Part shown: positions 12,001-25,866 of the stretch, one piece after another
Position numbering within the stretch: the stretch's first letter is position 1
Layout: the number at the start of each line of letters is the position of its first letter
Source: a virus
Direction: 5' to 3' (one strand)
Length of the DNA stretch: 25,890 nucleotides
Virus record (IMG/VR): IMGVR_UViG_3300002933_000997
Span: 1-25,890 of that record
The notes under the pieces: generated by a model
Database searches by the model: none
Seen by the model: only the letters and a program-made list of their open reading frames with translations
What the model was told of the DNA's origin: nothing
Translations under genes and position numbers: made by a program

Positions 12001-15000
12001 GCTAACAGTAATTACAGCAGCTTTAGCTTTGTGCCTGCCACATTTACGATTACCCCCAAACCAGCGGGTATTAATGTTGTTGCTGACAATAAAACCAAGA
12101 TGTATGCAACTAATGATCCAGCACTTACATACACTGCAAGCCTAGCAACTGGATCAGCTTTGGTTAATGGCACTGTTGATGGAATTGCCATTACAGATAC
12201 CTTTAGCAATATCTTTACTGGCGCTATTACACGTGCGCTTGTTGCAACCTTACCGGGCGAGCAGGTGGGAAGCTATGCGATTACGCAAGGTAGCTTAGCT
12301 AGCCCTAATTACGCCGGTATTAATTACACACCTGGTGTTCTAACGATTACCCCACGCGGTCCTTGGACTGGCCCTGGGGCATGGCCTGGCCCTGGCCCTG
12401 CACCACAAGCCTTGACTGTAGTTGCTGATAATCAAACCAAGTCATACGCAACAAATGACCCAACATTAAGCTATACCGTTACTGGCTTGGCCTCAGTCAC
12501 GCTCGCCAATGGGGTTGTCATCAACGATACTGCAGCAAGTGCATTAACCGGATCCGTAACTCGCTCCTTGTATGGAACAGTTGCTGGTGAGCAAGTGAAT
12601 ACCACATCTGGCTATGCCATTACTCAGGGTACTTTGACACAAAATGCAAATTACATGCCTTTGGTATTTACGCCAGCGGTGCTCACTATTACCCCATACG
12701 CTACGCCAATTGTGGTTACTGCAGCAGCTAAAACAAAATCTTATGGCACCAATGACCCTAGCCTGACTTATACAGTTGCTGGCTTGGTAAATGGAGTATC
12801 TGTTGACGGTGTGACATTAATTGATACATCTAGCACTGCTTTGACTGGTAATTTAGTGCGTGCTGGTACAAGCGCACCAAATGTAGCCACTTCTATTGCA
12901 AGCGAGCAGGTCGGTAGCTATGTGATTAACCAGGGAACCGTTTATGCAAGTAATTACAACATTACCTACAACTCTGCTAACTTAACAATTACGCCATATG
13001 CAACACCATTGGCTGTAGTGGCAAATGCACAAACTAAGGTTTATGGAACAAGCGATCCAAGCTTGACCTATAGTGTTTCAGCTCTGCCAAATATCCTCAA
13101 TGCCGATGGTTTAACTTGGACAGATACTGTTGCAAATTCCATCACGGGTGGATTGATACGTGCTGGTACAAGTGCACCAAATGTAGCTACCTCCCTTGCA
13201 AGTGAGCAGGTGGGTAGCTATGTAATTAATCAAGGTACATTGGATGCTGCGAACTATAACTTGGTATACACGCCTGCCAATTTAACAATTACCCCAGCTG
13301 TCGTAACTGTGACCGCTAATTCTGCTACGAAGTCCTATGGCACGAGTGATCCAGCATTAACTTACACCACCAGTGGAATTTTGAGTGGAGTAGTGGTGGA
13401 TGGCGTAACGATTAACGATAGCAGCGCAATCATGTCAGGCTCCTTAGGACGCGCAGGGTATGGCACAGTAGCTGGCGAGCAGGTGGGTACTTACGCAACA
13501 ACCATTGGCGGAGTAAATGCTGGCGCTAACTACAGCACCTTGCTAATCCCAAGTACTCTCACGATTACTCCGTATGCAGGAACCATTACGGTTACTGCAG
13601 ACAATAAGACGATGGTTTATGGCTCAAGCAGTCTGCCATCGTTGACATATACACCAACCGGCATTCCAAGCTCATTTAGCGTTGATGGTGTGACTTGGAG
13701 TGATGCTGCTGGATCTGTACTCACTGGTTTGCCAACCACCGCTGCAACAGCATTTAATGGCACAGCCGGGTCTGCCTCTAATGTCGGAACTTACGCCATC
13801 AATCCATCTGCCGTAGCCCTGACTGCTGGTGCGGGTGCTAATTACCGTACGCCTACATACGTCAACGGTACATTGACTGTTACCCAGGCTCCCTTGACCA
13901 TTGCCGTTGCTGATAACGGTAAGTTTGTGTTCCAGACTGACGCAGAAGTTCAGGCATCAGCTACCCAGATTTCTCCTGTGGCCTATAGTGGTTTTGTGAA
14001 TGGTGATGCTTTAGGGTCCCTCAAGACGGGTAGCGCCTTAACTCAACCTACTGTAGTTCGTGCGACTGGAGCAACGGCCGGTACTTACAACATAACCGCT
14101 ACTGGTGCCAGTGCATCTAACTACAGTATTAACTATCTCTATACCAATGCTGGAAACACAGCCTCGACCTTTACGATAGCTGGCCCTTATGACCTCTTAA
14201 TTAAGGCATCGACAAATAGCATTGTGTATGGAACGGCAAATTCGTCAGTGACGTATGGCGCTCCAACTGCTAGCTACTGCACAACTTGTACTGGACCAAG
14301 CAGCATTGTGAGTTTGACTGGAAGTCATACTGGAAATAATTGGACATTTACAGATGGCCTTTCAATTCCTGGTGGTGTTTCATTCACATTAAGCTCATCT
14401 TATGACAGCACTAACGCTGCAGCAAGAAATGTTGGAGTCTATGCAGTCTCAACTAGCAACGTTGTTCCCGTTACTACTACCGGTGCAGTGAACTACAACC
14501 ATGTCTATTCAGTAGATGGATTGATGACGGTGACTCCATTGGCGATTGTTGTTACGGCAACAAATGCGGCTAAAGTCTATGACGGCACTAATGGGGTATC
14601 AACTGCAACCACAGTTCCTGCTGCAACCTTGACTAATACTAGCAACGCCTTGGCTTACTCAGACGCACTTAGTGGCGGATCCTTTGTCTATGCAGATCCT
14701 AATGCTGGTGCTGGTAATAAGACTGTGAATATTTCAGGGGTTTCTACTGTTAATGGCTTGGTTGATGTTTCAGGTAACTACACCATTACATACGCGCCCA
14801 ATACAACTAGCACCATTACGCCTGCGGCATTGACCATTACCGCAAATAACCAAACAAAGATGTATGGAACAAATGATCCAAGTTTGACCTATGTCGTCAC
14901 AGGACTTGCGGCAACGGATAGCGTTTCTTCCGTGGTCACTGGTGGGCTATTGACACGTGCCAATGCTGCCTCGCTAGCTGGCGAGCAGGTGGGAAGCTAT

Positions 15001-16536
15001 GCGATTACGCAAGGTAGCCTAGCGACGAATGCTAACTACACCGTCAGTTTTGTTGATGGAACCTTAAGTATTACCCCGCGTGGTCCTTGGACTGGTCCTG
15101 GTCCATGGCCTGGCCCTGGTCCTGCACCACAGGCTTTGGCCGTATCTGCGACTGCTAATACAAAAGTATATGGCTCTAATGATCCAAGTTTGGCTTACAC
15201 CGTAGCCGGATTGGTTAATGTCACCTTGGCCAATGGCGTGGTCATCAATGACACGGCAGCCATCGTATTTGGTAGCACTAATGTATTGCGAGCAGGCACC
15301 AGTGCTGCCGGTGTTGCGCTAAGCCTTGCGGATGAGCAAGTGGCTAGCTACACCATTAATAAAGGCTCATTAGCTCTGCAAAACTCGAACTATGGCTCAA
15401 GCTTTGCATATAACAGCGCTCAATTTACGATCACACCAAAGGTTGTGACTGGTGCCAGCATTGTTGCTGACAATAAAACAAAGATGTATGGTACTAATGA
15501 ACCTGCCTTAACCTTTACCGCAAGTGCGCCAGCAGGCACCTTTGTTGTTGCTACGGTCGATGGCATCGCAATTAATGATTCTGCCGCTAATGTATTTACT
15601 GGTCAGTTGACGCGTGCACAAGTCAATACACTTGCAGGAGAGCAGGTCACGCCAGCAGGTTATGCGATTACTCAAGGTTCAGTAGCTGGCTCTGGAAATT
15701 ACTCCGGCTTTACATACACACCAGGAGTGCTGACAATTACCCCACGCCGTGCTTGGAATCCTGTTACAGATGGTCCTTGGATTGGGCCTGGACCAGCACC
15801 GCTTCCTTTAACCGTAACGGCTGTCCCTGCGACCAAAATGTTTGGTGCTGCAGATCCGGCCTTTGCTTATACCGTGACCGGCTTAGTTAGCGTGACATTG
15901 GCCAATGGAGTGGTCATAGCCGATACTCCAGCTAATACATTTACTGGTGCTTTATCTCGCATTTCTGGTGAGAATTCTGGTGGAATTTACGCAATCACGC
16001 AGGGTAGCCTGTTGCAGAATGCGAATTACTCATCCATGGTGTACGTCCCATCTACATTGACGATTGGACTCGCCCCACAAACTATCAACAATATGGCCGT
16101 TGTTCAGCAACAAGTTGCTCAAGAATTTGTCCAGGATCGTCCAACTGATCGTATCAAAAAAGGTGAATTGATCTACGTGCGCGATAAAGACGACTTGAAG
16201 CAGTATATGCAGGCTATTGAAGTGCCATCATCAGGTGCATTCAAGTTCCCGGTGCCTGATCAAATCATTCAAGACTTGATTAATCTATCGGGTGAGAATG
16301 TGCCATCGACTCAGCAAGCTAGTGGCTATAAGCTGTTGTTATTGCCAAAAGGCAGTCGCCTGGTTGTTACTCTCCCTGATGGTGCTGCATTGCCGGCTGG
16401 CATTCAATACGATGCAGGAAGCAAGAACTTCACAGTGCCTAAGCTTGGCGAAGTAACGTTGCCACTATCTGTAAAAGTGACCTTAATGCGTGGTAACAAG
16501 GTATTAAGTCAGAAGATTATGGTGGTTACTAAGTAA
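1..16536 (+). CDS. Giant MBG/YDG-repeat adhesin (5' end outside window)
   Basis: The frame is open from the first base to a TAA at 16534-16536, about 5,511 residues, so the true start lies to the left; a TTG at 241 is only an internal codon. Residues 1 to about 870 are a Ser/Thr/Gly/Asn-rich, beta-helix-like part typical of filamentous-haemagglutinin-type exoproteins. From about residue 880 to 5360 there are roughly forty units of about 100 residues, opening with strands such as LTITANAQTKVYGTNDPTL (MBG type) or TKVYDGTT (YDG type) and often containing GEQVGSYAITQG. The last 154 residues (16072-16533) are non-repetitive and more charged. No secretion (TPS) domain, signal peptide or autotransporter barrel is visible, so the export route depends on the missing N-terminus. 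The family is known for large extracellular adhesins; role in attachment or biofilm is inferred. An HTH gene follows after 18 nt. The frame has no interruption despite heavy repetition. Confidence 0.9.
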   Translation, partial: VNFSKPNTSTGTQTITYDTRTGNATSQITTGSFTYNATGATQKVNYVEESNGSNLTIGNSAASSIALSGYILVDNTNSGALTPSTTPTTTNMTTSAGVTAQGALTAGDYISLSGINNSATVAAVALGATTLTVTNASTATTAISVIGMHNSANKGNTGITSTGAITDNANGGGILFKSNADISQTGAVTVAANTSGTASSIVYDTTTGNLNSSITSGALTLTGGVSASNTAINFVEKTAGAQITVGAVSMPGYILLDNTYGGTAGAGGTPTTGFINQGNSSTLATAATGVTVGGTLTSGTYAGTNAITISGVTSGPTTAYGANIANALSAPTGNINITGTGTNNSGVYSGANITSTLGSVNVIGNSITGGGTSAVNFLAASNITAGGDINITGTVLDTSSSGSGIVFQGLVAPSAQKIVAGGAINVTGYSFNSTAANQSRGVLTNGEVYFKSGGNMTISASAPSATATANVATYLNNIVTNVGGNFVIQGATTGNVTNASGAVIPNTATPSPGSAATGQNHGIYIVNSASYTVGSTTYTGMNAAGNMSLTGTGNTGYGIYIFGAPPLTSTNGNITLTGASTSLMGVSNTGAITAQSGSVNIVGTATTDKAVLNTGVISATSGVTITGTGNLGVAAGTAGLVQASGAITNTGAGGVTVTSTGNTTTGAITDSGSGGISITGGRTVAAGTATNGTITAVGTLTNTGGGVISLSMAQPTSATGGAIETAAGVVNASPSAGQAVASVSSNVSYGNIGGVMGAVNAATVNSVNYRAYTQGIGVTLKASYTQPYGTAYNSVLAKDWLQNPAYATVTVTGSANFGAPTITAAQAQASLIFAGTIGSASNSNLVQTATNLDGTTNILSTLGNVVTTVGAGNTYTITPKALTITGTQLSSTYNGVSTYETVANAGYTISGLVTNFNTGTVASPVTGSATGDAVSSVTHVIKTGATVLSNTAIAQACATTNCYTDAVSAALGTGLSNYTIAYVSGTFNVSKAALTITQGNSTGTYSGSAQTFTPSYSVSGILGADSVSSLSTNTQTGTNAGSYTGTISGATGTGLSNYTIAYTPGTLTINGIPVYVTAANDTKVYGSSITGGAITYNSSGVSTNPASTAYTVTGLLAGNSISGLTLTSLGGQISAGVGSSPYSIVPSAATISGSGSGNYTVYYNNGTMTVTPKPITITANAVTTPVYGTSSTLSQTAYTVTGGLVGVDAITSLAIKYGTGSGAGTSVPGTVNAGTYAGALVPSSASGTGGFNSTNYTISYAAGSLTVNPLSLTITASAQTGATYGTAYSLGSSAYTQSIATLPNGDALSGVTLQSGGVNLVPGTTNAGTYTITPSAATLSSGIAANYNIIYATGTLTVGKASLTITPNAVSTTYNGTTLDNTTYSDAIANYSVAGYKNTDSSANTPVTLTGAMTFTSSGQSTVTNAATYTYAVGTLAGTSTNTNYNIVWANAPNNTYVINKALATVVATKPYDGTTTFAASTLTITGVGSEKLSASAGTGLANSANVVGVSSLVTSGYTLANGTSGTIGLAANYILPSSTSSVTITPLTLTASISGAAQTKVYDTTSTANLTAGSCSVSPCTAGNGVTLSGSNATSGSFTIGGFVAGEGAYITTATGNYINATSGLATPNVTLNAAAVTAGSQANAVKAVIAPSNIVALSNTTLSNYVLPSAAISATNATITAAALGVSANSYSMFTGGTTPTAVAGVSVTSASPSAPANPGATSLSAQVTGLLGADSVSVSLPLPGTFSSASGGTYTLTPTIASGITAGNYSITPTTGVLSVVGNRDLVISAGNATYVYGTVTASNLATSATPVVQYCAATSGSCAGSVINLTVATTATPNIWSATSTTGGIYNFTISVATPGYSTGGFAKVGSYAATASNNQVIHVDTTTVVNTYYVAGTVAVTPLTVTPVNNQVPSKVYDATTALTMTPLTTSGMALAGDVLSMTGTAAYNSKNAGTNVGYTISNLALGSADAANYVLSTNTLAGTNGTITPAPLTVAGLSANNKVYDTTNAATISSAGQALAGVFGGDTVSISSTGSYSGTFSQVDAANGLTVTPKTSTVGGLTVMSGVTLTGTDSGNYYVAGPSTALAANITPVPVSLTGTRVYNGTTAFSASSLTVTGIAGQTLVLGGSETANSANVGVANTLSSTSGLTLANGTTGTIGLASNYTLVGASSAISITPAAITVSAADVTKTYDGTNTATSTPVVISGTLYNNASNSGTKDALSGGTFAYTNPNVGSGNKTVTVSGVLASDGNSGANYTISYVNNTTSTITAKSISVTALAQTKSYGTSDPTLTYTVAGLASTDSLLVMTGNLLRQGTTAPNVASSITYEQVGTYPIAIGSLSAGSNYTISSFTPANLTITKYATNALTVTANAQTKVYGTNDPTLTYVTTGLPASLTADGLTWTDTAATAVTGSLIRAGMTAPGVAPNATPEAVGTYAITNTYATSPLVSTNYNISYVGANLTITAAPLTVSAANKTKSYATNDPALTFNNPVGLINATVDGVAIADTSSVLTGSLVRAQARTLAGEQVATSPYAITQGTLAVTGGNYNLAFTPGTLTITPYAGTISVSAVNNQKGYGSSDPALTYTVSGLANVILSNGVVINDTLKPTSFFAGNVARAAGESMGTYAIGVGSLALNSGAGANYSWTPTNPATFTAATFTINPATLYVIVADNGKFVFQSDPTPLTTVVYSGFVNGDTSTTAAGLVAPTLTRVSAGNNTVGTYAITASGASATNYIIVYQYTQGVTSGNPTGTNSNFYVAGSNDLLISPAPATAVYGTANANINLGKPVVQTCLSPCAAPTDIVTLNYTGTSNGTLSYADPAKGSGGVSFALSTNYDSTTPALRNVDAYTLTPSGISQISNSAGGNNYQSVFGLGSSLSITPAPITITTTNVTKVYDGTTAATSAMGASAINVATGTTSTGIYSDVISGGNFVYASPNVCSGTCIVSVSNAAISGTSVVNALPNYSITYVDNTTSTITQAALTITANAQTKMYGTNDPTLTYTVSGLAASDTVTSVMSGSLTRVLSGTLAGEQVNTSTGYAILQGTLAANANYSTSYVSSVLKITPRAIWTGPGAWPGPGPAPAPVTVTAVDQTKVYGSNDPSLAYTVTGLVSVTLANGVVINDTAASVFTGGLLRAGTSAPGVATGIASEQVGSYAIANNSGTAPLALNAGAQANYGLAANGFVYNAGTLTITLNAATINIVAANKTKSYATNDPALTYTVNATNGSLVNAIVDGVLINDTAATVTSGTLTRAQYGTLAGEQVTTAGYAITQGSVVAAANYASSTFTPAILTITPYATPITITADAKTKSYATNDPSLTYAVAGLVSGVVVDGVAITDTAANTMSGSLLRAGTSAPGVATSALSENVGTYLIAQGTVAPNANYTATYTSANLTITPYATPLTVTANNQTMVYGSSGMPILTYGVTGLVNGSVVDGVTLSNNSASVFTGNLSTTATAYNGTAASASNVGNYPIAVGTLALNTGEGANYTFVAANNFNAGTLSVTPAPLTIAVADNGKFVFQTDAQVQASATQISPVVYSGFVNGDALGALKSGSTLTEPTVVRTSAGNGVAGSYAITASGASASNYSITYQYTQGVSASTPNGTNSNFIIAGPYDVLIEAKPTTVMYGTSSVTYTRPVVTYCTSCSSSASVVTLTGTNVGNNWTFADNLSVSGGITFTLGSSYSTAAVATRSVGDYPIAPSNVAPITNATGGTNYNNLYKVDSVLTVTPAPISITTANVTKPYDGLTTTVGAAPITTAGTQTYFGDTLSGGTFTYTSASAGAGNKVVTPDLVAIQNGASNVASNYVVTYVNNTSSTITPAALTITANAQSKLYGTNDPLLSYVVTGLASTDTISSALTGGLLRTGTSAPNVATSLTSENVGSYAIGQGSLIANSNYVLTYNGANLTITPITTNVVVTANNNTKVYGVNDPTLTSTAPALLTGVVVDGLTINDTVSSVFTGNILRAGTSAPGIATGLASEQVGSYAISQGTLALPANSNYSSFSFVPATFTITPKPAGINVVADNKTKMYATNDPALTYTASLATGSALVNGTVDGIAITDTFSNIFTGAITRALVATLPGEQVGSYAITQGSLASPNYAGINYTPGVLTITPRGPWTGPGAWPGPGPAPQALTVVADNQTKSYATNDPTLSYTVTGLASVTLANGVVINDTAASALTGSVTRSLYGTVAGEQVNTTSGYAITQGTLTQNANYMPLVFTPAVLTITPYATPIVVTAAAKTKSYGTNDPSLTYTVAGLVNGVSVDGVTLIDTSSTALTGNLVRAGTSAPNVATSIASEQVGSYVINQGTVYASNYNITYNSANLTITPYATPLAVVANAQTKVYGTSDPSLTYSVSALPNILNADGLTWTDTVANSITGGLIRAGTSAPNVATSLASEQVGSYVINQGTLDAANYNLVYTPANLTITPAVVTVTANSATKSYGTSDPALTYTTSGILSGVVVDGVTINDSSAIMSGSLGRAGYGTVAGEQVGTYATTIGGVNAGANYSTLLIPSTLTITPYAGTITVTADNKTMVYGSSSLPSLTYTPTGIPSSFSVDGVTWSDAAGSVLTGLPTTAATAFNGTAGSASNVGTYAINPSAVALTAGAGANYRTPTYVNGTLTVTQAPLTIAVADNGKFVFQTDAEVQASATQISPVAYSGFVNGDALGSLKTGSALTQPTVVRATGATAGTYNITATGASASNYSINYLYTNAGNTASTFTIAGPYDLLIKASTNSIVYGTANSSVTYGAPTASYCTTCTGPSSIVSLTGSHTGNNWTFTDGLSIPGGVSFTLSSSYDSTNAAARNVGVYAVSTSNVVPVTTTGAVNYNHVYSVDGLMTVTPLAIVVTATNAAKVYDGTNGVSTATTVPAATLTNTSNALAYSDALSGGSFVYADPNAGAGNKTVNISGVSTVNGLVDVSGNYTITYAPNTTSTITPAALTITANNQTKMYGTNDPSLTYVVTGLAATDSVSSVVTGGLLTRANAASLAGEQVGSYAITQGSLATNANYTVSFVDGTLSITPRGPWTGPGPWPGPGPAPQALAVSATANTKVYGSNDPSLAYTVAGLVNVTLANGVVINDTAAIVFGSTNVLRAGTSAAGVALSLADEQVASYTINKGSLALQNSNYGSSFAYNSAQFTITPKVVTGASIVADNKTKMYGTNEPALTFTASAPAGTFVVATVDGIAINDSAANVFTGQLTRAQVNTLAGEQVTPAGYAITQGSVAGSGNYSGFTYTPGVLTITPRRAWNPVTDGPWIGPGPAPLPLTVTAVPATKMFGAADPAFAYTVTGLVSVTLANGVVIADTPANTFTGALSRISGENSGGIYAITQGSLLQNANYSSMVYVPSTLTIGLAPQTINNMAVVQQQVAQEFVQDRPTDRIKKGELIYVRDKDDLKQYMQAIEVPSSGAFKFPVPDQIIQDLINLSGENVPSTQQASGYKLLLLPKGSRLVVTLPDGAALPAGIQYDAGSKNFTVPKLGEVTLPLSVKVTLMRGNKVLSQKIMVVTK
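49..795 (+). repeat. Two copies of a ~186-residue unit in the N-terminal part of the adhesin
   Basis: Copy A begins at 49 (YDTRTGNATSQITTG) and ends near 240 (GYILVDNTNSGA). Copy B begins at 607 (YDTTTGNLNSSITSG) and ends near 795 (GYILLDNTYGGTAGA). Both carry a NYVEES/NFVEKT motif and an LTIG/ITVG strand in the same order. The start-to-start distance is 558 nt and the end-to-end distance 549 nt, an in-frame 3-residue difference. Copy A is next to the window edge, so the array may continue upstream. Confidence 0.7.
8014..10539 (+). repeat. Adhesin super-repeat 1
   Basis: The module order is: a unit opening VADNGKFVFQSD (8014); a unit opening DLLISPAPATAVYGTAN with a Cys-rich start (about 8308); a YDG unit (8671); one MBG unit (8962); a Trp/Pro/Gly linker (9217-9273); and four further MBG units. 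The same leading order recurs at 10540 and 13894, which defines it as a higher-order repeat. Confidence 0.75.
9217..9273 (+). other. Trp/Pro/Gly linker 1 in the adhesin
   Basis: This segment encodes RAIWTGPGAWPGPGPAPAP, placed exactly between the end of one MBG unit (ILKITP-like) and the first strand of the next (VTVTAVDQTKVYG). It differs sharply in composition from the Thr/Ala/Asn-rich units and probably forms a stiff extended hinge. Confidence 0.75.
10540..13893 (+). repeat. Adhesin super-repeat 2
   Basis: It opens with VADNGKFVFQTDAQVQASAT (about 10545), followed by a DVLIEAKPTTVMYGT unit with YCTSC (about 10861), a YDG unit (about 11212), three MBG units, the linker RGPWTGPGAWPGPGPAP (12355-12405), and five MBG units. 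It is about 830 nt longer than super-repeat 1 because it contains extra MBG units. Confidence 0.75.
12355..12405 (+). other. Trp/Pro/Gly linker 2 in the adhesin
   Basis: It encodes RGPWTGPGAWPGPGPAP between two MBG units and is almost identical at protein level to the linkers at 9217 and 15079. It is preceded by the usual closing strand LTITP. Confidence 0.75.
15079..15129 (+). other. Trp/Pro/Gly linker 3 in the adhesin
   Basis: It encodes RGPWTGPGPWPGPGPAP between two MBG units. The Ala of linkers 1 and 2 is replaced by Pro; the other residues match linker 2. Confidence 0.75.
15745..15810 (+). other. Divergent Trp/Pro/Gly linker 4 in the adhesin
   Basis: It encodes RRAWNPVTDGPWIGPGPAPLP, a variant carrying a five-residue change in its first half but keeping the two Trp residues and the GPGPAP end. 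It precedes the final MBG unit. Confidence 0.65.
16072..16533 (+). other. Unique C-terminal domain of the adhesin
   Basis: The last 154 residues leave the repeat pattern. They start with Gln-rich QQQVAQEFVQDRPTDRIKKG, contain many charged residues, and end in beta-rich VTLPLSVKVTLMRGNKVLSQ. No membrane anchor, LPXTG-like signal or beta-barrel ending is visible. This could be an adhesive tip, a capping domain or a secretion-related domain; which one cannot be told from the sequence. Confidence 0.55.
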
Positions 16537-18488: not shown

Positions 18489-19694
18489 ATGCAAAAGAGA
18501 GCCAAACTACCCAACGGATATTGGAATGACCCTGGGCATTGCAAAGCAGAGGCTCTTAAATATAGTTCTCGCTCAGAATGGCAAAGAGGCTCCCCTTTAA
18601 GTTACCGTTGGGCTATTCAAAATAATTGGGTTGAAGAATGTGCTGCTCACATGCATTCCAGCCGAATGCCTGATGGTTATTGGACGCTAGAGCGTTGCCA
18701 GGATCAGGCTAGGAAATATAAATCAAAGGTTCAGTGGAGAATGGAGCATCGCGCATCATTCTCTAAGGCAAATAAAGAGAAGTGGTTAGTGCAATGCTGT
18801 GATCACATGGAAAAAAGTGGTATGTGGTTTGGTCCAGCATCCATTCTTGAGGTACTGCTTTCACATGATGTTCGCTATAAGACGGAACACCGCTTCCAGG
18901 ATGGTAGTGAAATCGATCGCAGACCATTTGACTTTTATTTGCCTGATTACAACTTAGTTATTGAATTTCATGGTGAGCAGCATCTAATTGGCTGGGGTAG
19001 GAGAGATTCAGATGCTCAAGATATACAGGCTCGAGACTTATTCAAAAAGACATGGGCTAAAGACCATGGCATTAATTACTTAGAAATAAAGCAGTGGGAA
19101 ATTAAATCAAAAGAAGAAATCTTTGTCAGGGTGCTTAAAGAGATTAAGTTAATTTCTAAAAATAAAAAACTTATTATTCCGCTATTAAAAAGAGATCTAA
19201 CACCGTCAGAGTTGCTCAAAGTTAAAAATAGACTTAAGTGGACTAAAGAATCGTGTATTTCAGAGGCAAAAAAATACATGACTATTAAAGAGTGGCAGAT
19301 GGGCAGTTCTGGTAGTTATCAGGCTGCATTTAAAAAGAAATGGCTTGTGGAATGCTCAAGTCATATGGATCGACTGCTGCATAAAAAGAACCATTGGACG
19401 TTAACTAGCTGCTTTGAAGACGCCCGGCAATATAAGACTAAGTCCGAGTGGCAGCAGGCAAAAAGAAGTGGGTATTCAATAGCCGCTAAGAATGGCTGGA
19501 TTGAGAAATGCACAGCACATATGGTTCCTGATGGCAGAAAAACAGTTGGACAAAGATTGTGGACAAAAGAAAAATGTATGGAGTTGGCTAGGACCTGTAA
19601 TTCCAGGGCGGAGTTCAAAAGGGCCTCTGGGTCCGCATATCTTAGGGCGAGTGTAAAAGGCTGGCTAGATGAATGCTGTGAACATATGAGATAG
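18489..19694 (+). CDS. Endonuclease-like protein: Vsr/EDxHD-type nuclease core inside five Trp/Cys/HM repeats
   Basis: This 401-residue protein has five copies of a roughly 45-residue repeat at about 11-55, 64-107, 251-293, 303-345 and 358-400. Each runs W/YW...C..EA.KY...EW......Y..A...W...C..HM. Between copies two and three lies a nuclease-like core (112-235): Glu121 in a helix (SILEVLL), Asp148 in FDFYLPDYN, then IEFHGEQH (Glu159, His165) and Asp183/Lys186 in ARDLFKKTWA, then the strand INYLEI. This fits the Vsr-like branch of PD-(D/E)XK nucleases, including EDxHD homing endonucleases such as I-Bth0305I. The repeats probably bind DNA. A free-standing homing or mobility nuclease is the leading reading; a defence nuclease is possible. 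It is bracketed by att-like sites at 18410 and 19725 and may be mobile. Confidence 0.7.
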   Translation: MQKRAKLPNGYWNDPGHCKAEALKYSSRSEWQRGSPLSYRWAIQNNWVEECAAHMHSSRMPDGYWTLERCQDQARKYKSKVQWRMEHRASFSKANKEKWLVQCCDHMEKSGMWFGPASILEVLLSHDVRYKTEHRFQDGSEIDRRPFDFYLPDYNLVIEFHGEQHLIGWGRRDSDAQDIQARDLFKKTWAKDHGINYLEIKQWEIKSKEEIFVRVLKEIKLISKNKKLIIPLLKRDLTPSELLKVKNRLKWTKESCISEAKKYMTIKEWQMGSSGSYQAAFKKKWLVECSSHMDRLLHKKNHWTLTSCFEDARQYKTKSEWQQAKRSGYSIAAKNGWIEKCTAHMVPDGRKTVGQRLWTKEKCMELARTCNSRAEFKRASGSAYLRASVKGWLDECCEHMR

Positions 19695-19724
19695 CTTGCC
19701 TCATTAGTATTTCTTGTTGTAGAC

Positions 19725-19745
19725 CAACGGATCGTTGGTCCGTTG
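19725..19745 (-). other. Att-like core site at the distal end of the island (site 2)
   Basis: On the + strand, the arms CAACGGA and TCCGTTG form a perfect 7-bp inverted repeat around a 7-nt centre TCGTTGG, the geometry of a tyrosine-recombinase core site. The arms match the anticodon stem in the tRNA-Lys gene (25822-25842) in the same orientation; GACCAACGGAT (11 nt) is identical at 19722 and 25819, and 20 of 26 bases agree overall. The centre differs from the tRNA loop, and the tRNA 3' end is not repeated here, so this is only a candidate attachment end. An overlapping palindrome (GACCAACG-GAT-CGTTGGTC, 19722-19740) lies on top of it. Confidence 0.45.
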
Positions 19746-19754
19746 CTGCCATTC

Positions 19755-20156
19755 CTACCCCCCAGGACCGCGCAAAAGCTTTTCGTATTCAGGGTTTAGC
19801 TTGGGTTTGATGGGAAATCGACTTTTCGGAGTTAATCCTAGTTCAGTCATTAAAAGTATCGCCTTGGTAATGGATTTTTCTCGAATATCTACGTGATGAT
19901 TTTTCCCTTTGACGCCGTTGTGATGGGTGATCACTAAGCCATTCTCTGAAATATCCTTGCAGCACACAACGAATGTCTCTAGTACTTCTGCAAGCATCGC
20001 TAAAGCATGCTGATCTTGCTCTGTGCTACTTTCATATGCCTCCCATAGGTACTCAGAGGCATCATTAATAAAGGTGTACTTATCCCATGTTTCGGGATTT
20101 TTAACCCAGCTAGCTAGGGGGATAGGGCTTATAACTTGATCGGTTCTGCTTTTCAT
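19755..20156 (-). CDS. P27-like terminase small subunit-like protein, second copy
   Basis: This 133-residue protein is the last gene of the element. Its C-terminal half follows the P27 small-terminase pattern: a helix (LAMLAEVLETFVVCCKDIS, 52-70), then ENGLVITHHNG (71-81), then a helix and LGLTPKSR (106-113), with a basic/Pro tail. The neighbouring gene at 20294 has the same order (EEGLTV..VNG, then LGFDPASR), so they are probably divergent paralogues. A P27 protein would recognise phage DNA for packaging. AAGGG lies seven nt before the ATG. It is separated from the first copy by 137 nt, unlike the tightly packed genes upstream. It might also be a diverged regulatory or decoy form. The assignment comes from motif comparison by eye. 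Confidence 0.5.
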   Translation of the reverse strand: MKSRTDQVISPIPLASWVKNPETWDKYTFINDASEYLWEAYESSTEQDQHALAMLAEVLETFVVCCKDISENGLVITHHNGVKGKNHHVDIREKSITKAILLMTELGLTPKSRFPIKPKLNPEYEKLLRGPGG

Positions 20157-20293
20157 GGGAATACCCTTGTTTTTGAAAGTTGGTCTTGCGGAAAATTGTC
20201 AGACTAGCTGCTATCAAAAGCGTCTCAGATGTTTTAGTTTCTAATGGAAGTTGTAATTTAAAACAGCCTGCTGTAGTACATTTAACTCGTGCC

Positions 20294-20707
20294 CTAATCA
20301 ATATTAAACTTTGCCCACGGGTTGTTTGGGTCATGTTCTGGCTGTATATCTAACTTTTCTCTTGACGCAGGATCGAAGCCAAGAGCTGTGGATGCCTTAA
20401 GCATTAAGACTGCTTGACGGTTAATGATGGGCAAATATGGAGATTGGATCAAATAGCCATTGACTGACTTAACAGTCAAGCCTTCCTCGGCGAGTAAGGC
20501 GCTTGCCTCACGATGTACGGACTCTGCCACAACCCAGATTGTGAGAATTGAAGAGTCAATCTTTTTTAAGAGACCCTTTGGTGCCACTTCAATAGCTTTT
20601 CGCCAACCTTCTTTTTGGGAAGGGGATAACCAATCGGGTGTATTAACTAGACTTGGGTCGAATGGAATTTCAACGACTGAATTTACTCGCTTAAGTTTTT
20701 TTAGCAT
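20294..20707 (-). CDS. P27 family phage terminase small subunit
   Basis: This 137-residue protein is close to the usual size. The P27 signature is visible: W35 within a helix (SQKEGWRKAIE), a second helix (SSILTIWVVAESVHREASALL, 52-72), EEGLTVKSVNGYLIQSP (74-90), then a helix ending LGFDPASREKL (109-119). TerS proteins bind the packaging site of phage DNA and deliver it to the large terminase ATPase/nuclease, which is absent here. The start has a strong Shine-Dalgarno AGGGAG six nt upstream of the ATG. The gene lies 54 nt downstream of the winged-helix gene, as part of the polymerase operon. In satellites, a private TerS redirects the helper's packaging machine to satellite DNA; that role is inferred from the missing capsid genes. 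Confidence 0.7.
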   Translation of the reverse strand: MLKKLKRVNSVVEIPFDPSLVNTPDWLSPSQKEGWRKAIEVAPKGLLKKIDSSILTIWVVAESVHREASALLAEEGLTVKSVNGYLIQSPYLPIINRQAVLMLKASTALGFDPASREKLDIQPEHDPNNPWAKFNID

Positions 20708-20761
20708 TTAACTCTCCCTGTTGTTTTGTATAGTGTGACAATTTTTGCCTTCACGTACGGT

Positions 20762-21148
20762 CTAGACACTAAAGGTGCTAGGGATTAGACCCCCATACCC
20801 CCCTATATCTTCATATTCATCTTCGAAGTCTTTAATAATCCTAACTACTGGGAATGCCCCATGTCTTATGGTCAGATGGATCAAGCCAGCGGCTTCTAAT
20901 CTCTTTAGCGCTCTTTGTCTTGCCTGTCTGGAGATACCAGTCACATCATCTAGCCTCCAAGTTAGACGGAATGACTCTCCATGATTGATGCCATCGTAGA
21001 ACCATAGGGATGTTGCTACTGCACTCGTACACCCACCCAGGCGATTTGCTTTGATTAGCCAAGAAAGAGGAATTGGGCCTTTGATAAAGTATTTTGTTTT
21101 CATAATTGCTTTATTTCTATTAGATATATAAGAATGGACAGGTGTCAT
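20762..21148 (-). CDS. Winged-helix DNA-binding protein, coupled to the polymerase gene
   Basis: This 128-residue protein has a winged-helix fold suggested at about residues 45-105: SLWFYDGINHGESFRLTW, then VTGISRQARQRALKRLEAAGLI and a wing strand HLTIRHGAFPVVRII. The FIKGPIPLSWLIKANRL start resembles proteins often found beside replication genes of mobile islands. Function is likely replication control, origin binding or transcription regulation. The ATG at 21148 follows the polymerase TGA by only two nt (TGA-GG-ATG), giving stop-start coupling; a second ATG at 21103 would give 113 residues but has no ribosome binding site. The tail (107-128) is acidic and then Gly-rich. Confidence 0.6.
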   Translation of the reverse strand: MTPVHSYISNRNKAIMKTKYFIKGPIPLSWLIKANRLGGCTSAVATSLWFYDGINHGESFRLTWRLDDVTGISRQARQRALKRLEAAGLIHLTIRHGAFPVVRIIKDFEDEYEDIGGYGGLIPSTFSV

Positions 21149-21150
21149 CC

Positions 21151-22905
21151 TCAGTTATAGGTTGGTGTTATGTTTTGCACTTTTTGATTGATGTCTATCA
21201 CCTGATTCCAGAACTCCAAGTCAGCGTCACTTAGAAATCTATCGGGGTATCGAATCACCTCGGTCTCGCTGCCCAGCTCAAATCCATTAAGGACATAGCG
21301 ACTGGCTTGTGTCATGCATTCAATCGCAATTTGTACTTCCAGATCAATTTCATCCTCATTAGCTTCGATAAGAATTGCGTCATGTACTGGCGCACACATA
21401 TAAATCCCGCGACCTGCCATCAAAATGCAGGCAATTCGAAGCATCTCGGCGGAATTAGCTTGCATCGGGAAGTTCCGAATACTTCTGGGATTCAAATCTG
21501 GCTTCACAATTTGCCGCCAGCCATAAACCGTTTGAATTCTATTGGTTGATATGGCGTGGTTGTAGGCGCTATCAGACCACTCCCAAAATTGTTTGTAGAT
21601 ACGCCGATGGGCAGCTAAGAGTTGTCTGGCACGTATTACGGGTTGCTTGAGGCTTTGTGCTAATGCTTCTGCCCCCATCCCATATTGAGTTGCTAAGACA
21701 CAGAGTTTGTATTGCTCACGCTCCTGAAGATGACTTCTCTTCGTGGCGCCTTCAGGTACGGCGCCAGCTTGTTTTGCAAACGCAAGGTATGGATCGCCGC
21801 TCTCATAAGCAGCCATCATATTTATGTCTTTTGATAAAGCTGCGGCGACACCAAACTCTTGCTGTGACCAGTCAATGTAGGCAAGAGCGCGCCCAGGCAT
21901 TGGTTGCATTAATCCTCTAGCCCATTTAGATAGCCCAAATACAAACTTATTAGTAGAGGGCTGGTTACGACTAGTAGTTGAGCTAAAGGGTGATAGTAAA
22001 CAGCGATTGCGTCCATCGGAGCCTACTTGAAGAGCATTGAGTCGCAGCTTAGATAGGCTATCTCGTAGCTTTCTTAGTGGGGCTAATTGCAGATGTATCT
22101 TAGACATTAGCTTAAATGTTTCTTCGTCGAGCTTAAGTCTTCCGCTTGGATGCCGCTCCCATTTAATTTGATTTTTTGTAAGGTATGCCTCAAATCGTAC
22201 TTCTTTAAAGACCCCTTTTTCATAGACGTTATAGTCTTCATCAATTTGATTAATTAATTCTGCCTTAATCAATTCCCAGTTTTGACAAAGTGAGCTATAG
22301 ATACCCATATCAATCGGAGTTCCATTAGATTCCATAATGGCTAGGGGTATGGCATAAGCGCCTCGAAGAAGTGCTCTGGGTAGATCTAGGCTATTTGCCA
22401 TGGCATTTAATAACTGATCAAGAGAATCCACATCACTTTGGCAATAATCTAGAAGCGCTGTCTTTTCATCTGTGGTGTAAGGGCCACCGCGTAATGCTAG
22501 GGATCGCATCAGATCTTTATGGGCAGGCTCGCAAATTTGAATCCCGAATGACTTAAGTGCACCCAATAAGGAATTGCCAAAAAAGGGTGGTTGGCCGTTA
22601 GTTAGGCATCTAAATTCAGCAAATAAATCCAGAATATTTTCTGGCCACGACCACCCAAGCGCTTTATAGCAATTCATTTCAGCGCTCGCGAAATAGGCAA
22701 CCAAAATCTGGTTTCCGCTGTTACTAAATGGATGGTCCTTGAGTAGCAAAAGCTCATCAGCCCAGAGATTTTTATATTCTCCAGTTGCTAGATTTTTAGA
22801 GGACATGCAAATCACCTCTATAGGATTTCCTTCCCGGCCATCCTTCGGTCGAAACTCAAAGTCAATCAGGAGGTATTCATATTCTGTTGGAGTGGCGGGT
22901 AGCAT
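21151..22905 (-). CDS. Family A DNA polymerase with 3'-5' exonuclease (mobile-element type)
   Basis: At 584 residues it is much shorter than PolA (about 930) because it lacks the 5' nuclease domain. The exonuclease looks intact: Asp15 and Glu17 in LLIDFEFRP, Asp93 in ILDLFAEFR, and Tyr154...Asp158 in YCQSDVD. The polymerase motifs keep Klenow spacing: a TSRNQPS block (311-317); motif A Asp345 in YIDWSQQEFG; motif B Arg396, Lys400, Tyr408-Gly409; the Arg474, Asn478, Gln482 cluster; and motif C His508-Asp509. Ala510 replaces the usual Glu after HD. It should be a proofreading replicative polymerase for the element. Its ATG directly abuts the stop of the upstream gene (TAAATG) with AGGGGA inside that gene's end. 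A chromosomal PolA is ruled out by size and context. Confidence 0.88.
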   Translation of the reverse strand: MLPATPTEYEYLLIDFEFRPKDGREGNPIEVICMSSKNLATGEYKNLWADELLLLKDHPFSNSGNQILVAYFASAEMNCYKALGWSWPENILDLFAEFRCLTNGQPPFFGNSLLGALKSFGIQICEPAHKDLMRSLALRGGPYTTDEKTALLDYCQSDVDSLDQLLNAMANSLDLPRALLRGAYAIPLAIMESNGTPIDMGIYSSLCQNWELIKAELINQIDEDYNVYEKGVFKEVRFEAYLTKNQIKWERHPSGRLKLDEETFKLMSKIHLQLAPLRKLRDSLSKLRLNALQVGSDGRNRCLLSPFSSTTSRNQPSTNKFVFGLSKWARGLMQPMPGRALAYIDWSQQEFGVAAALSKDINMMAAYESGDPYLAFAKQAGAVPEGATKRSHLQEREQYKLCVLATQYGMGAEALAQSLKQPVIRARQLLAAHRRIYKQFWEWSDSAYNHAISTNRIQTVYGWRQIVKPDLNPRSIRNFPMQANSAEMLRIACILMAGRGIYMCAPVHDAILIEANEDEIDLEVQIAIECMTQASRYVLNGFELGSETEVIRYPDRFLSDADLEFWNQVIDINQKVQNITPTYN

Positions 22906-23484
22906 TTAACATTTCCCCTGTAGCTGGCTAATCAGTGGATGCTCCTCCGAGGCGATGATCCGTCCTAAAAATACTTCATGGATGAGCGCCTCCATGGATT
23001 GAGTTGGCCACTGGGGATCACCCAGATTGTTTGCGGCCTGGATGATGGTGTATTGCTGTGCATCCATATTCGACTCGATACGAACCCATGCTTCTTCTGA
23101 TAGCCTGATTGCCTCTAGCATGGTGGTTGTCCAAAGTGTAGTTCTGCTTGCTGAATCAATGATCGGTTCTGCAATTAGCTTGGGTGTTGCAGCACTGTCA
23201 ACTACCAGCCTCAAAATTACACTCTTAGCCATAGAGCCAAGATGGGCCGCAAGGTGAGGCATAACTAAGTAAACCTCTCGACCTTCTTTGTCATCTACCA
23301 GTAATGCCGGGAATTTGTATTCATCGGTAGGATGTGTTCTAGAAAACCGGTGCTTACTTAATTTTCCAAATATTGCTTTAGTTGGCAGCTTTATTCCGCC
23401 GTTAACTAAGGCATAGCTATCGGGTAACCTTAGGCTGCCTATGTCATATTTAACGCCTGGAGTAGATTCTGGCAAGGGGCTCAT
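22906..23484 (-). CDS. Unidentified 192-residue protein in the polymerase operon
   Basis: I do not recognise this protein. The first half is beta-rich with a basic stretch (AIFGKLSKHRFSRTH, about 38-52) and a likely compact domain ending VYLVMPHLAAHLGSMAKS. The second half is helical, with Trp and acidic residues. There is no signal peptide or membrane segment. The ATG overlaps the preceding TGA as ATGA, and its TAA abuts the polymerase ATG, so it is translated in fixed proportion to both. This tight packing suggests a replication accessory role, such as a single-strand-binding or polymerase-partner protein, but no motif proves that. Confidence 0.7.
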   Translation of the reverse strand: MSPLPESTPGVKYDIGSLRLPDSYALVNGGIKLPTKAIFGKLSKHRFSRTHPTDEYKFPALLVDDKEGREVYLVMPHLAAHLGSMAKSVILRLVVDSAATPKLIAEPIIDSASRTTLWTTTMLEAIRLSEEAWVRIESNMDAQQYTIIQAANNLGDPQWPTQSMEALIHEVFLGRIIASEEHPLISQLQGKC

Positions 23485-23729
23485 GATGCAATTCCTAAGG
23501 ACTTGCGAGCAATGGCTTGCGCTATTTCAATAACCTTTAGGTCATAAGCAGGGCGTATACGAAACCAACTGCCGCGAACTTTGATTAAGGCACCAGATTC
23601 AACTAGCGCCTTACGATTGATTCGTTCAAACCAGTTAACTGCATTCTCTGAGCCAAATAAACTTTTGCCCTCTGGTGTATTGAGAAAATCCGATTTACTC
23701 TGAATACTGTTGAGTGTGACTTCATTCAT
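23481..23729 (-). CDS. Small putative DNA-binding protein, first gene of the replication operon
   Basis: This 82-residue protein has a core (about 30-70) that reads NAVNWFERINRKALVESGALIKVRGSWFRIRP followed by an amphipathic helix. The shape (aromatic helix, a 'GALI...GSW' turn, a basic strand) resembles small excisionase/AlpA-like or regulatory proteins of integrative islands, where Trp-Phe-x-Arg-x-x-Arg is common. The role is inferred and not proved. It is the first gene after the 160-nt gap that holds the likely promoter, and its stop overlaps the next start. A Shine-Dalgarno-like GGAAGG lies about seven nt before the ATG. Confidence 0.5.
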   Translation of the reverse strand: MNEVTLNSIQSKSDFLNTPEGKSLFGSENAVNWFERINRKALVESGALIKVRGSWFRIRPAYDLKVIEIAQAIARKSLGIAS

Positions 23730-23889: not shown

Positions 23890-24699
23890 TTATTTTTTTA
23901 GTCTGAATTGAGAAACAACATTTGTATAAAACCAGCGTGAGCTATATGGAATTTTTTTAAACTCTTTTGTCTCCCTTTTTGCCTTCAGAAGTTCAAAAAG
24001 CGCATCAGAGAATTTAACACCCATTTTTGGATATTTCTCAACTAATTCCATGAACCTGGGGTTACTAATACAAATATCCCAATAAGACTTTGCAAGACTA
24101 GCAGCTATTAACCCTTTCTCTCTTCCAGCATTACTCCTATCTTCGAGTATTTTTTTCTCTTTAATTGAGTTCGCAACTAATAAGGGAAAATTTATCTGAC
24201 TAACTAAAATGTTTGAAAACTTGAGTTCGAATCGAAGTTTATCGATTGAACCCCAAGCCTCTGCGGCTTTAATAGTAAATAGATATGCTAGATTTTCATG
24301 TTTCTGGGCTGTTAATACTCTAGAAACCGCAGCAAAAAGAGTAAATTGATGAACCAGAGGCAAGAGTGGGGCAGCTAAATTAAAAAATCCCTCAGAAGTA
24401 TTGTTTTCGAGCGCTTCACCATCCCATTCATCTTGTAATTCCATGGGAATTAATTGGTCAAATGGTTTTAGGTTCCGCTCCTTATTTTTTTCGTACTTAA
24501 TCAATCTCTCTGAAGTTAGCTCCCCAGACAAAGCTTTTTGATAGTAGCTAGAATATATTTTTTGTATATCAAAAGTTGGAGTGAGTATTCTTTCTGCGCC
24601 TGAGCCAAATGTACGTCCAGAGAGCTTAGAAATTAACTTTAATCTACTTTTAATATACTCCTCTGAGTTGAATTTAGGTGATGTAGGGTTTGGTTTCAT
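23890..24699 (-). CDS. Unidentified 269-residue island protein
   Basis: I do not recognise this protein. The frame is open to an ATG at 24744 (284 residues, overlapping the integrase by 23 nt), but that start has no ribosome binding site. The ATG at 24699 has AAAGGA five nt upstream and is chosen here, 22 nt after the integrase stop. The protein is basic and helical: a Lys/Arg-rich N-terminus, an acidic patch (DEWDGEALENN), a hydrophobic middle (FFNLAAPLLPLVHQFTLFAAVSRVL) too polar at its edges to be a clear membrane segment, and a basic C-terminal end. Its Ile/Lys/Asn-rich, A+T-rich coding differs from its neighbours, which suggests separate acquisition. Its place just behind the integrase is where islands often carry cargo, but no defence or toxin motif is visible. 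Confidence 0.6.
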   Translation of the reverse strand: MKPNPTSPKFNSEEYIKSRLKLISKLSGRTFGSGAERILTPTFDIQKIYSSYYQKALSGELTSERLIKYEKNKERNLKPFDQLIPMELQDEWDGEALENNTSEGFFNLAAPLLPLVHQFTLFAAVSRVLTAQKHENLAYLFTIKAAEAWGSIDKLRFELKFSNILVSQINFPLLVANSIKEKKILEDRSNAGREKGLIAASLAKSYWDICISNPRFMELVEKYPKMGVKFSDALFELLKAKRETKEFKKIPYSSRWFYTNVVSQFRLKK

Positions 24700-24704
24700 T
24701 TTCA

Positions 24705-24710
24705 TCCTTT
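24705..24710 (-). promoter_or_regulatory. Ribosome binding site that decides the start at 24699
   Basis: AAAGGA on the minus strand lies five nt before ATG 24699. It touches the in-frame ATG at 24705, which is therefore too close to be used, and no such motif precedes the longer start at 24744. Confidence 0.5.
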
Positions 24711-24721
24711 GCCAATAAGCT

Positions 24722-25714
24722 TTATTGGGGCTTTGCCTGACCATTTGAAAAAGTTTTGCAGATCATTTCTTTTCGTGAATCAACGCATAAGTGGCTGTAG
24801 CGTTTTGTCATAGCTAGAGATTTATGTCCCATGCTGTCAGCAATTGCTAAGAGTGGTGCTCCTTGTTGGGCTAGCCAAGATGCATGAGTGTGGCGTAACG
24901 AATGAAATACTAGCTTTTCATCTTTAGGGGTTTCGCTAGTATTTTCTAGTCTCGCGTCCTTCAACGCTTGACTCCAAGGCCTATTGAAGTTTGCCGGCTT
25001 AAAGGGATTGTCGCCACAAAAAACATACTCGTCGGGATTTCCTTTGCCTTTGAATTTTTTCAGCTCTGTCACGACATCATCAGTCAGAACCAAAACAAAA
25101 GGTTCGCCATTTTTGGTTCTTTGCACAAAAGCTTCAGCTCTGTCTAGGTCTACATCTTTCCACTTAAGTCCCAAAAGGGTGCCTCTACGCCCACCGGTAG
25201 TAACGGCGATGGTTACAAGGGCGGTTAATTTTCTCCAGTGTGAGATCCGAGTCATTTTGAGTAGCCTTTCATATTCGTCTGGCTTTAAATACCGTTTGCG
25301 TATGTTGTCTTCTGGCATACGCTCGGTCTCATTGACAGGGTTAATCCATCCTTTGGGCATCAATCGTTTTTTTCGTGCCCAAGTTAATACTGATTGCAGA
25401 GTGCAGCGGTAACGATTGATTGTGGCATCTGCCAGGGGTTTATGGGTGATTTCTCCGGTTCCACCACGTTTGGTGCCTGTACGGTAGTGAAGCTTGCCAC
25501 GCTTACGGAGTGCATCAAGGCAGTCATCCACATGGTCTGCATCGATTTCAGACGCAATAAGACCGCCCAGATGTAGGGTGAAAAAGTGAAGTCTGCTACT
25601 GAAAGTGGAGTCTCGGCCAGCGTAACCAGCCATAAAAGTATCGGCAAGAGCCGAGAAACTGAACTGCTCACCCCGTTGCAAGGGGGCGTTTACTGCCAAA
25701 GTGCCTGTATCCAT
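24722..25714 (-). CDS. Tyrosine recombinase (phage-type integrase)
   Basis: This 330-residue integrase is of normal size. The N-terminal SAM-like core-binding domain covers about 15-125 (FSALADTFMAGYAGRDST; TINRYRCTLQSVLTWARKKRL). The catalytic domain (about 140-320) has all expected residues: Arg176 in TTGGRRGTLLGLKW, Lys201 in QRTKNGE, His271 and Arg274 in HSLRHTHASWL, His297 in MGHKSLAMTKRYSHL, and Tyr306 as nucleophile. It should cut and rejoin att sites to insert and excise the element. GGAG lies seven nt before the ATG. The gene starts 76 nt from the 3' end of a tRNA-Lys gene, the classic position for an integrase that uses the tRNA as its attachment site. Confidence 0.92.
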   Translation of the reverse strand: MDTGTLAVNAPLQRGEQFSFSALADTFMAGYAGRDSTFSSRLHFFTLHLGGLIASEIDADHVDDCLDALRKRGKLHYRTGTKRGGTGEITHKPLADATINRYRCTLQSVLTWARKKRLMPKGWINPVNETERMPEDNIRKRYLKPDEYERLLKMTRISHWRKLTALVTIAVTTGGRRGTLLGLKWKDVDLDRAEAFVQRTKNGEPFVLVLTDDVVTELKKFKGKGNPDEYVFCGDNPFKPANFNRPWSQALKDARLENTSETPKDEKLVFHSLRHTHASWLAQQGAPLLAIADSMGHKSLAMTKRYSHLCVDSRKEMICKTFSNGQAKPQ

Positions 25715-25790: not shown

Positions 25791-25866
25791 TGGTGGGTCG
25801 GGCGAGATTCGAACTCGCGACCAACGGATTAAAAGTCCGCTGCTCTACCGACTGAGCTACCGACCC
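25791..25866 (-). tRNA. tRNA-Lys (anticodon UUU)
   Basis: Read on the minus strand this is a complete 76-nt cloverleaf: acceptor GGGTCGG pairing with CCGACCC, D-arm GCTC...GAGC, anticodon stem GCGGA/TCCGT with loop CTTTTAA, T-arm GCGAG-TTCGAAT-CTCGC, discriminator A, and an encoded CCA end. The anticodon TTT (25831-25833 on the + strand) gives lysine. The sequence is close to E. coli tRNA-Lys. The first anticodon-stem pair is a G-U wobble. The gene is intact and is the likely integration target of the adjacent element. Confidence 0.97.
25822..25842 (-). other. Presumed attachment core in the tRNA-Lys anticodon arm (site 3)
   Basis: On the + strand CAACGGA, a 7-nt centre TTAAAAG (the anticodon loop) and TCCGCTG make the same 7-7-7 layout as the site at 19725. 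Tyrosine integrases often use the anticodon stem-loop as core. The integrase gene faces the tRNA 3' side. Confidence 0.5.

Follow-up and report, generated by a model that had tools for sequence, protein, structure and literature searches.

Why would an element carry two small terminase (TerS) genes side by side and no large terminase (TerL)? This question is raised by a stretch of viral DNA, record IMGVR_UViG_3300002933_000997 of IMG/VR (25,890 nucleotides, here called the window). A preliminary description, made from the letters alone, had noted two consecutive, divergent P27-type genes at 19755-20707 and offered three roles for them: a mixed ring, the recognition of different helpers, or an inhibitor of helper packaging. 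The explanation that we prefer, which taken as a whole comes close to being probable, is that the island is a satellite in which one TerS (P133) and a cos-like site recruit helpers resembling Methylophilaceae phage P19250A, while the other TerS (P137) most likely acts as an adaptor to a second phage lineage.

Two P27-family small terminases in one island

P133 (19755..20156, 133 amino acids) and P137 (20294..20707, 137 amino acids) are encoded head to tail on the minus strand. Both matched the Terminase_4 family PF05119 above its Pfam gathering cutoff of 24.7 bits (P133, 48.5 bits, E = 1.2e-12; P137, 53.5 bits, E = 3.4e-14), and both matched PHROG 83 (terminase small subunit). Against the NCBIfam P27 equivalog TIGR01558, which has a cutoff of 45.6 bits, P137 scored 58.9 bits and P133 scored 33.1 bits. 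The GL-V/I-x-x-x-NG turn followed by LG-x-x-P-x-SR, which had been read from the translations, is present in that order in P133 (GLVITHHNG...LGLTPKSR) and in P137 (GLTVKSVNG...LGFDPASR).

AlphaFold models of the two proteins (mean pLDDT of 80 for P133 and 84 for P137) have the same order of elements: a helix, a long helix, a beta hairpin, a helix, and the LGxxPxSR segment. A structure search of BFVD with the P133 model retrieved P27 TerS models (best E = 2.8e-10); together with the PF05119 score, this disposes of the suspicion that the 133-residue protein might be unrelated to P27. HK97 TerS was among the top PDB structural matches of both models, at nonsignificant E values of 0.5 to 1, and PDB sequence searches with profiles of P133 and P137 gave no TerS match.

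P137 retains the residues that are invariant across its family, and a purine-rich, ribosome-binding-like stretch precedes its start. We attributed an 8-residue identity that P137 shares with a TerL to colinear divergence and set it aside. Searches of the window with TerL sequences from three clades gave no match, in agreement with the preliminary description.

The island lies beside a tRNA-Lys gene of Polynucleobacter

The two TerS genes close a minus-strand operon that runs from an integrase through a variable protein, a small protein, a 192-amino-acid protein, a family A DNA polymerase (PolA), and a winged-helix protein to P137 and, last, P133. The insertion end of the island is marked by a tRNA-Lys(TTT) gene (25791..25866, minus strand; ARAGORN). 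The tyrosine integrase (24722..25714; PF00589, E = 5.9e-31) shares 64% identity with the integrases that adjoin tRNA-Lys in two Polynucleobacter genomes. Adjoining it is the variable protein (23890..24744), which had no family match in Pfam, PHROG, or NCBIfam and has different proteins in its place in sister islands. The small protein (23481..23729) has homologues at two related loci, L185 and L186, and occupies an excisionase/regulator position, a role assigned from position only. Directly upstream of polA lies the conserved 192-amino-acid protein (22906..23484), 49 to 63% identical in sister islands and likewise without a match in the three family collections. PolA (21151..22905; PF00476, E = 3.8e-22) is the predicted replication protein of the island; its motif C region reads HDA (VHDAILIEA) instead of the usual HDE, as does that of the L185 homologue (IHDAVLIEA). 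The winged-helix protein (20762..21148) has weak MarR/HTH matches and, in sister islands, directly precedes the gene position that we call the packaging slot.

Convergent with the TerS genes is a nuclease-like cargo gene (18489..19694, plus strand) with PHROG homing/HNH endonuclease matches. Between the two lies a stem-loop, GACCAACG-GAT-CGTTGGTC (19722..19744), which recurs unchanged after TerS at loci L186 and L147; L149 has a version of it with a compensatory change. The conserved form, GACCAACS-ATC-SGTTGGTC, is similar to the tRNA-Lys and tRNA-Asn anticodon arms. We considered a 26-nt match between the left side of the island and tRNA-Lys as a possible attR and rejected it, because in tRNA-Asn islands, too, TerS is followed by this hairpin. 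The left two-thirds of the window is taken up by a 5,511-amino-acid open frame with repeated adhesin-like domains (1-16536), apparently host chromosome.

Judged by sequence, the host of the island is Polynucleobacter, a freshwater bacterium, since tRNA-Lys and its 5' flank match that genus (the tRNA is identical and the flank is 95 to 97% identical).

Sister islands carry a single gene in the packaging slot

A PolA query found only a near-identical fragment in viral contigs and nothing in genome contigs. In a genus search of 186 Polynucleobacter genomes, nine encode intact PolA relatives (60 to 66% identical) and two more encode decayed ones; in a sample of 398 genomes from the family, PolA was seen only in genomes known from that search. 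In P. cosmopolitanus MWH-MoIso2 and in Polynucleobacter sp. Latsch14-2, related islands with one TerS adjoin this tRNA. The gene order int-X192-PolA-WH-slot is conserved among the sister islands, which are free of phage structural genes.

In these islands, the slot after the winged-helix gene holds a single gene. Its occupant is a P133-type TerS in five genomes (G001, G002, G057, G113, and G161), a small cysteine-motif protein in four (G029, G040, G069, and G110), and a DUF5681 protein in G066, with a relative in G038. Because sister islands have one slot gene, P137 is an addition upstream of the usual gene, and no counterpart of it was found in them. The same pair was sought in related islands, as had been proposed, and did not turn up: PF05119 occurs in 13 of the 186 genomes with one match apiece, and the only places with the P137-P133 doublet were the window and an identical, overlapping 4.2-kb fragment.

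The cysteine-motif (PHROG 3678-like) and DUF5681 proteins that stand at the L179-L184 slots where others have TerS are perhaps other packaging adaptors. The DUF5681 protein as a stand-in for TerS is unsupported, having one phage match and no TerL seen nearby. At L186:10514-11341, the place of the window's nuclease-like gene is taken by a gene for an HNH nuclease, type IV restriction-like, that also runs toward TerS, which suggests that this position is a slot for defense cargo.

The two small terminases come from two phage lineages

Gene 1 of phage P19250A (KX815270), which is annotated as hypothetical and directly precedes TerL, encodes a protein 43% identical to P133. An IMG/VR scan with a P133 alignment returned 315 relatives, and TerL partners were counted in 79 of the 80 contigs retrieved from these, leaving out the window's own fragment. 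A P19250A-type TerL follows the P133-type TerS in 78 of the 79, and the remaining contig ends just past TerS. P137 is 50% identical to the TerS of a Polynucleobacter prophage, which adjoins TerL. Nearly all P137-family contigs have TerL of other clades downstream, and these partners are 29 to 33% identical to P19250A TerL.

A TerS tree separated the two families with a support of 1.0 and placed P133 and six other satellite TerS in one clade (support, 1.0) inside phage TerS. One of the six, from G005, belongs to an element with a different replication module, and the TerS cassette therefore appears to move between satellites. By these comparisons, the two TerS of the window stem from two phage lineages.

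This divergence bears on the proposed mixed ring. Equal predicted folds and neighboring genes would suit a single ring of P133 and P137 with a new DNA specificity, but the two proteins are so divergent that we regard this as very improbable: direct BLASTP found only weak similarity (27% over 56 amino acids, E ~0.005), which also indicates that the pair is not a recent duplication, and the proteins fall in separate clades. P133-type TerS, moreover, occurs alone in sister islands. The tree likewise speaks to the idea of a decayed prophage in which two TerS happened to survive. Such a remnant could hold two small packaging genes and no structural genes, but we give it hardly any credence, as the island TerS belong to a satellite-only clade and the conserved gene order recurs in Polynucleobacter genomes without phage structural genes.

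A cos-like site precedes P133

Between P137 and P133, the window contains a cos-like site, TTAGAAACTAAAACAT ... ACAATTTTCCGCAAG ... AAGGGTATT (20161..20244, minus strand), identified by alignment with phage cos regions and sister islands, which have their block in the same place. P133-type phage contigs tend to share a start: of 52 such contigs, more than half begin 28 to 31 nt ahead of a G run that lies just upstream of TerS, the pattern that a physical cos end should leave. Read across this shared start, the phage sequence is AGAAACTTAAATATTT ... AAAGCAAGCGCG, then CCCAATTTCCCACAAA ... GGGGGGT. In the islands, the noncoding gap before TerS contains the phage blocks in unchanged order.

A two-block matrix built from phages alone placed a site in the window 43 nt from the P133 start (permutation p = 0.002). 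The matrix site lies 41 to 46 nt before TerS in most islands and 71 nt before it in L150, and p values were 0.001 to 0.005 at six of seven TerS-bearing loci, including the window, and 0.087 at L185. The same search upstream of P137 found nothing (p = 0.53). A first HMM, made from four phage cos regions and searched against 332 kb, recovered six satellite sites upstream of TerS (E = 1.9e-5 to 0.016); the next matches at the expected place were those of L155 (E = 0.15) and the window (E = 1.5, 7.2 bits), and the top match elsewhere came only at an E value of 10. When a broader HMM was run against 1.2 Mb, satellite sites led again with one exception, L097 (E = 1.7e-9), and the window site was not reported. 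An HMM of the left cos half only was nonsignificant over whole loci; with the right-end half added, several sister islands became significant and the window did not.

The resemblance had first been spotted by eye and the matrix and the HMMs came later, so we take their p and E values as support and not as the outcome of blind tests. The putative cos-like site is well supported for the island family, and that of the window, among the weakest in the family, draws mainly on the alignment and the matrix test. P133 and the adjacent cos-like site very probably constitute a packaging module for P19250A-like helpers.

No cognate site for a P137-type TerS was found in the island, and no motif could be built from P137-type phages. 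P137 is flanked by a 15-nt inverted repeat (TAGTSTGACAATTTT; 20192-20206 and 20731-20745; 93% complementary), one arm of which (20192-20206) falls inside the cos-like site. The repeat is absent from all other loci compared and could be an insertion mark or chance. It would fit P137 as a passenger or replacement intermediate, with the island caught holding a newcomer and the old gene, as would the changing slot occupant (P133-type TerS, cysteine-motif, or DUF5681 protein) in sister islands and the single occurrence of the two-TerS arrangement. We nevertheless consider this rather improbable: P137 is intact, its N terminus is satellite-like (see below), and it was inserted upstream of the cos-terS cassette, which it did not displace.

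Most satellite small terminases lack the phage N-terminal motif

Phage TerS of both clades start with a PPELHxVxGT or GRKPxPTxLKxLxGT segment. P133 and P137 are both without this phage motif (GRKPxPTxLK in the case of P137), and it is also missing from nine of 10 other TerS of TerL-less elements that were examined, G104 being the one that retains it. Loose motif matches in ISL_G001 and SAT_G005 fall on PIPLAxW and are spurious. The N-terminal arm of HK97 TerS inserts into the minor groove and clamps cos together with a C-terminal arginine (PMC11331095). By analogy, satellites may have changed the DNA-reading part of TerS and kept the TerL-facing core, and the loss of the motif from P137, P133, and most satellite TerS suggests adaptation rather than fresh debris.

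The same loss could be read differently, with P133 and the cos-like site performing packaging and P137 acting as an interfering or redirecting protein of the Rpp kind. Deprived of the arm that contacts cos in HK97 TerS (PMC11331095), P137 would join the TerS ring or the TerL of a competing HK97-like phage and block or redirect its packaging. Rpp of Escherichia coli PICIs offers a precedent (PMC6739421), and the island yielded no P137-type site. Motif loss is no mark of an inhibitor, however, because P133 and its satellite sisters, which are tied to the cos-like site, have lost the motif too; P137 also keeps a short basic N terminus. We judge this role for P137 to be unlikely, if a serious candidate.

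Other elements in Polynucleobacter

Several further loci carry parts of the same machinery. The strongest nonphage cos match, the L097 site noted above, lies at L097:1930-2017 near tRNA-Lys in Polynucleobacter sp. JS-Safj-400b-B2, with no TerS near it and with a candidate defense gene, HEC-09 (L097:898-1536), between the match and the tRNA; this locus is possibly a cos-only hitchhiker. In G104, the stretch L152:754-4436 encodes an integrase, an AAA ATPase, a phage-capsid-family protein, and a P137-type TerS, with a transposase-like gene at the contig end; TerL was not found in this stretch.

A second satellite family (L153, L154, and L155, from G071, G090, and G155) has an integrase, a primase-like protein plus a RecA/DnaB-like ATPase, and then a distant P133-like TerS. 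The cos-like site upstream of this TerS is significant in L153 (E = 0.001 to 0.002) and weak in L155. A small tRNA-Asn element in G005 (L151:6395-9337) combines an integrase, a primosomal-like protein, and a P133-type TerS with a cos-like site (matrix p = 0.001) and has no PolA. At L027 and L111, the tRNA-Lys segment ATCCGTTGGTC is repeated ~55 nt downstream of tRNA-Lys; these repeats are possibly scars of other elements using this tRNA.

A proposed satellite with two packaging adaptors

Packaging, the identity of the helper, and any function of P137 are what we infer from these features. According to the satellite explanation that we prefer, the element would integrate beside tRNA-Lys and be replicated by its own polymerase. 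During growth of a P19250A-like phage in the same cell, the helper TerL would be brought to satellite DNA by P133 and the cos-like site, and this DNA would then be packaged into helper heads. The source of P137 would be another phage lineage, HK97-like, from which it entered the island upstream of the cos-terS cassette; there it most likely lets the element use TerL of that second lineage (L005/L146-type).

Three features lead us to favor P137 as a second adaptor: an intact gene, an N terminus of the satellite type, and descent from a lineage that has a prophage-like member (G101) in the genus. Among the three roles first suggested for the pair, recognition of different helpers is best supported, because the TerS clades and TerL partners differ and only P133 adjoins a cos-like site. 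Two observations count against our explanation: the two-TerS arrangement is known from one island, and the cos-like HMM match of the window is weak, with no P137-type site beside it. Because such a site was not found, the inhibitor and passenger readings keep some weight. Probably the island is built to travel in particles made by other phages, which may be of two unrelated kinds; that a satellite with two TerS of different lineages is packaged by two unrelated helper motors is a real but somewhat doubtful possibility.

If this explanation is right, it shows how gathering packaging adaptors could extend the helper range of a satellite, and one helper lineage is predicted from sequence alone through the shared cos-like site. 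The Polynucleobacter islands with their varying slot offer a ready-made set in which to study how TerS is matched to TerL and how DNA is chosen. Loss of the N-terminal motif with retention of the core in most TerL-less elements makes a testable claim about which region of P27-type TerS determines DNA specificity.

Comparison with known satellites

That satellites bear TerS and cos is already known. In the pac SaPIs of Staphylococcus, a satellite-encoded TerS works with the helper TerL (PMC5052747). Like these, the window island is integrated and has its own TerS and no TerL; unlike them, with their single TerS, pac (headful) packaging, and other replication module, it has a cos-like site and a pair of TerS from separate lineages. 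Other satellites, such as the cos SaPI SaPIbov5 and the E. coli PICI EcCICFT073, carry a helper-like cos site (PMC5052747, PMC6092414, PMC6739421), a feature that the island shares. EcCICFT073 also has a TerS-like gene, whose product, Rpp, acts with the helper TerS, and more than one phage packages this satellite (PMC6092414, PMC6739421). In the window island, by contrast, its own TerS homologue adjoins the cos-like site and is joined by a TerS of a second lineage; a family A polymerase is present, and AlpA and a primase-helicase were not seen.

P19250A and related viral contigs are the source clade of the P133-type TerS and the cos-like sequence. Unlike the island, these tailed phages have TerL, portal, and capsid genes, and their TerS retains PPELHxVxGT. 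A closer resemblance of the window island is presumably that to tycheposons and VEIMEs. These are transduced islands of aquatic bacteria, and many are thought to be satellites (PMC10803314). A partial literature search found no satellite with two TerS, and in particular none in which they differ in lineage and one adjoins a cos-like site.

As a phage satellite should, the island has a helper signal and adaptor without a motor, namely TerS and a cos-like site (weak in the window) and no TerL. Like PICIs, it has an integrase and no phage structural or lytic genes. In place of the AlpA/Stl-type regulator and primase-helicase replicon of PICIs, it has a family A polymerase and no family match to such a regulator, and it spans ~6 to 7.3 kb, measured from tRNA-Lys to the hairpin or the cargo gene, compared with ~12 to 15 kb for PICIs. 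The window island would work like SaPIs and PICIs but stands outside the PICI definition in replicon, regulator, and size.
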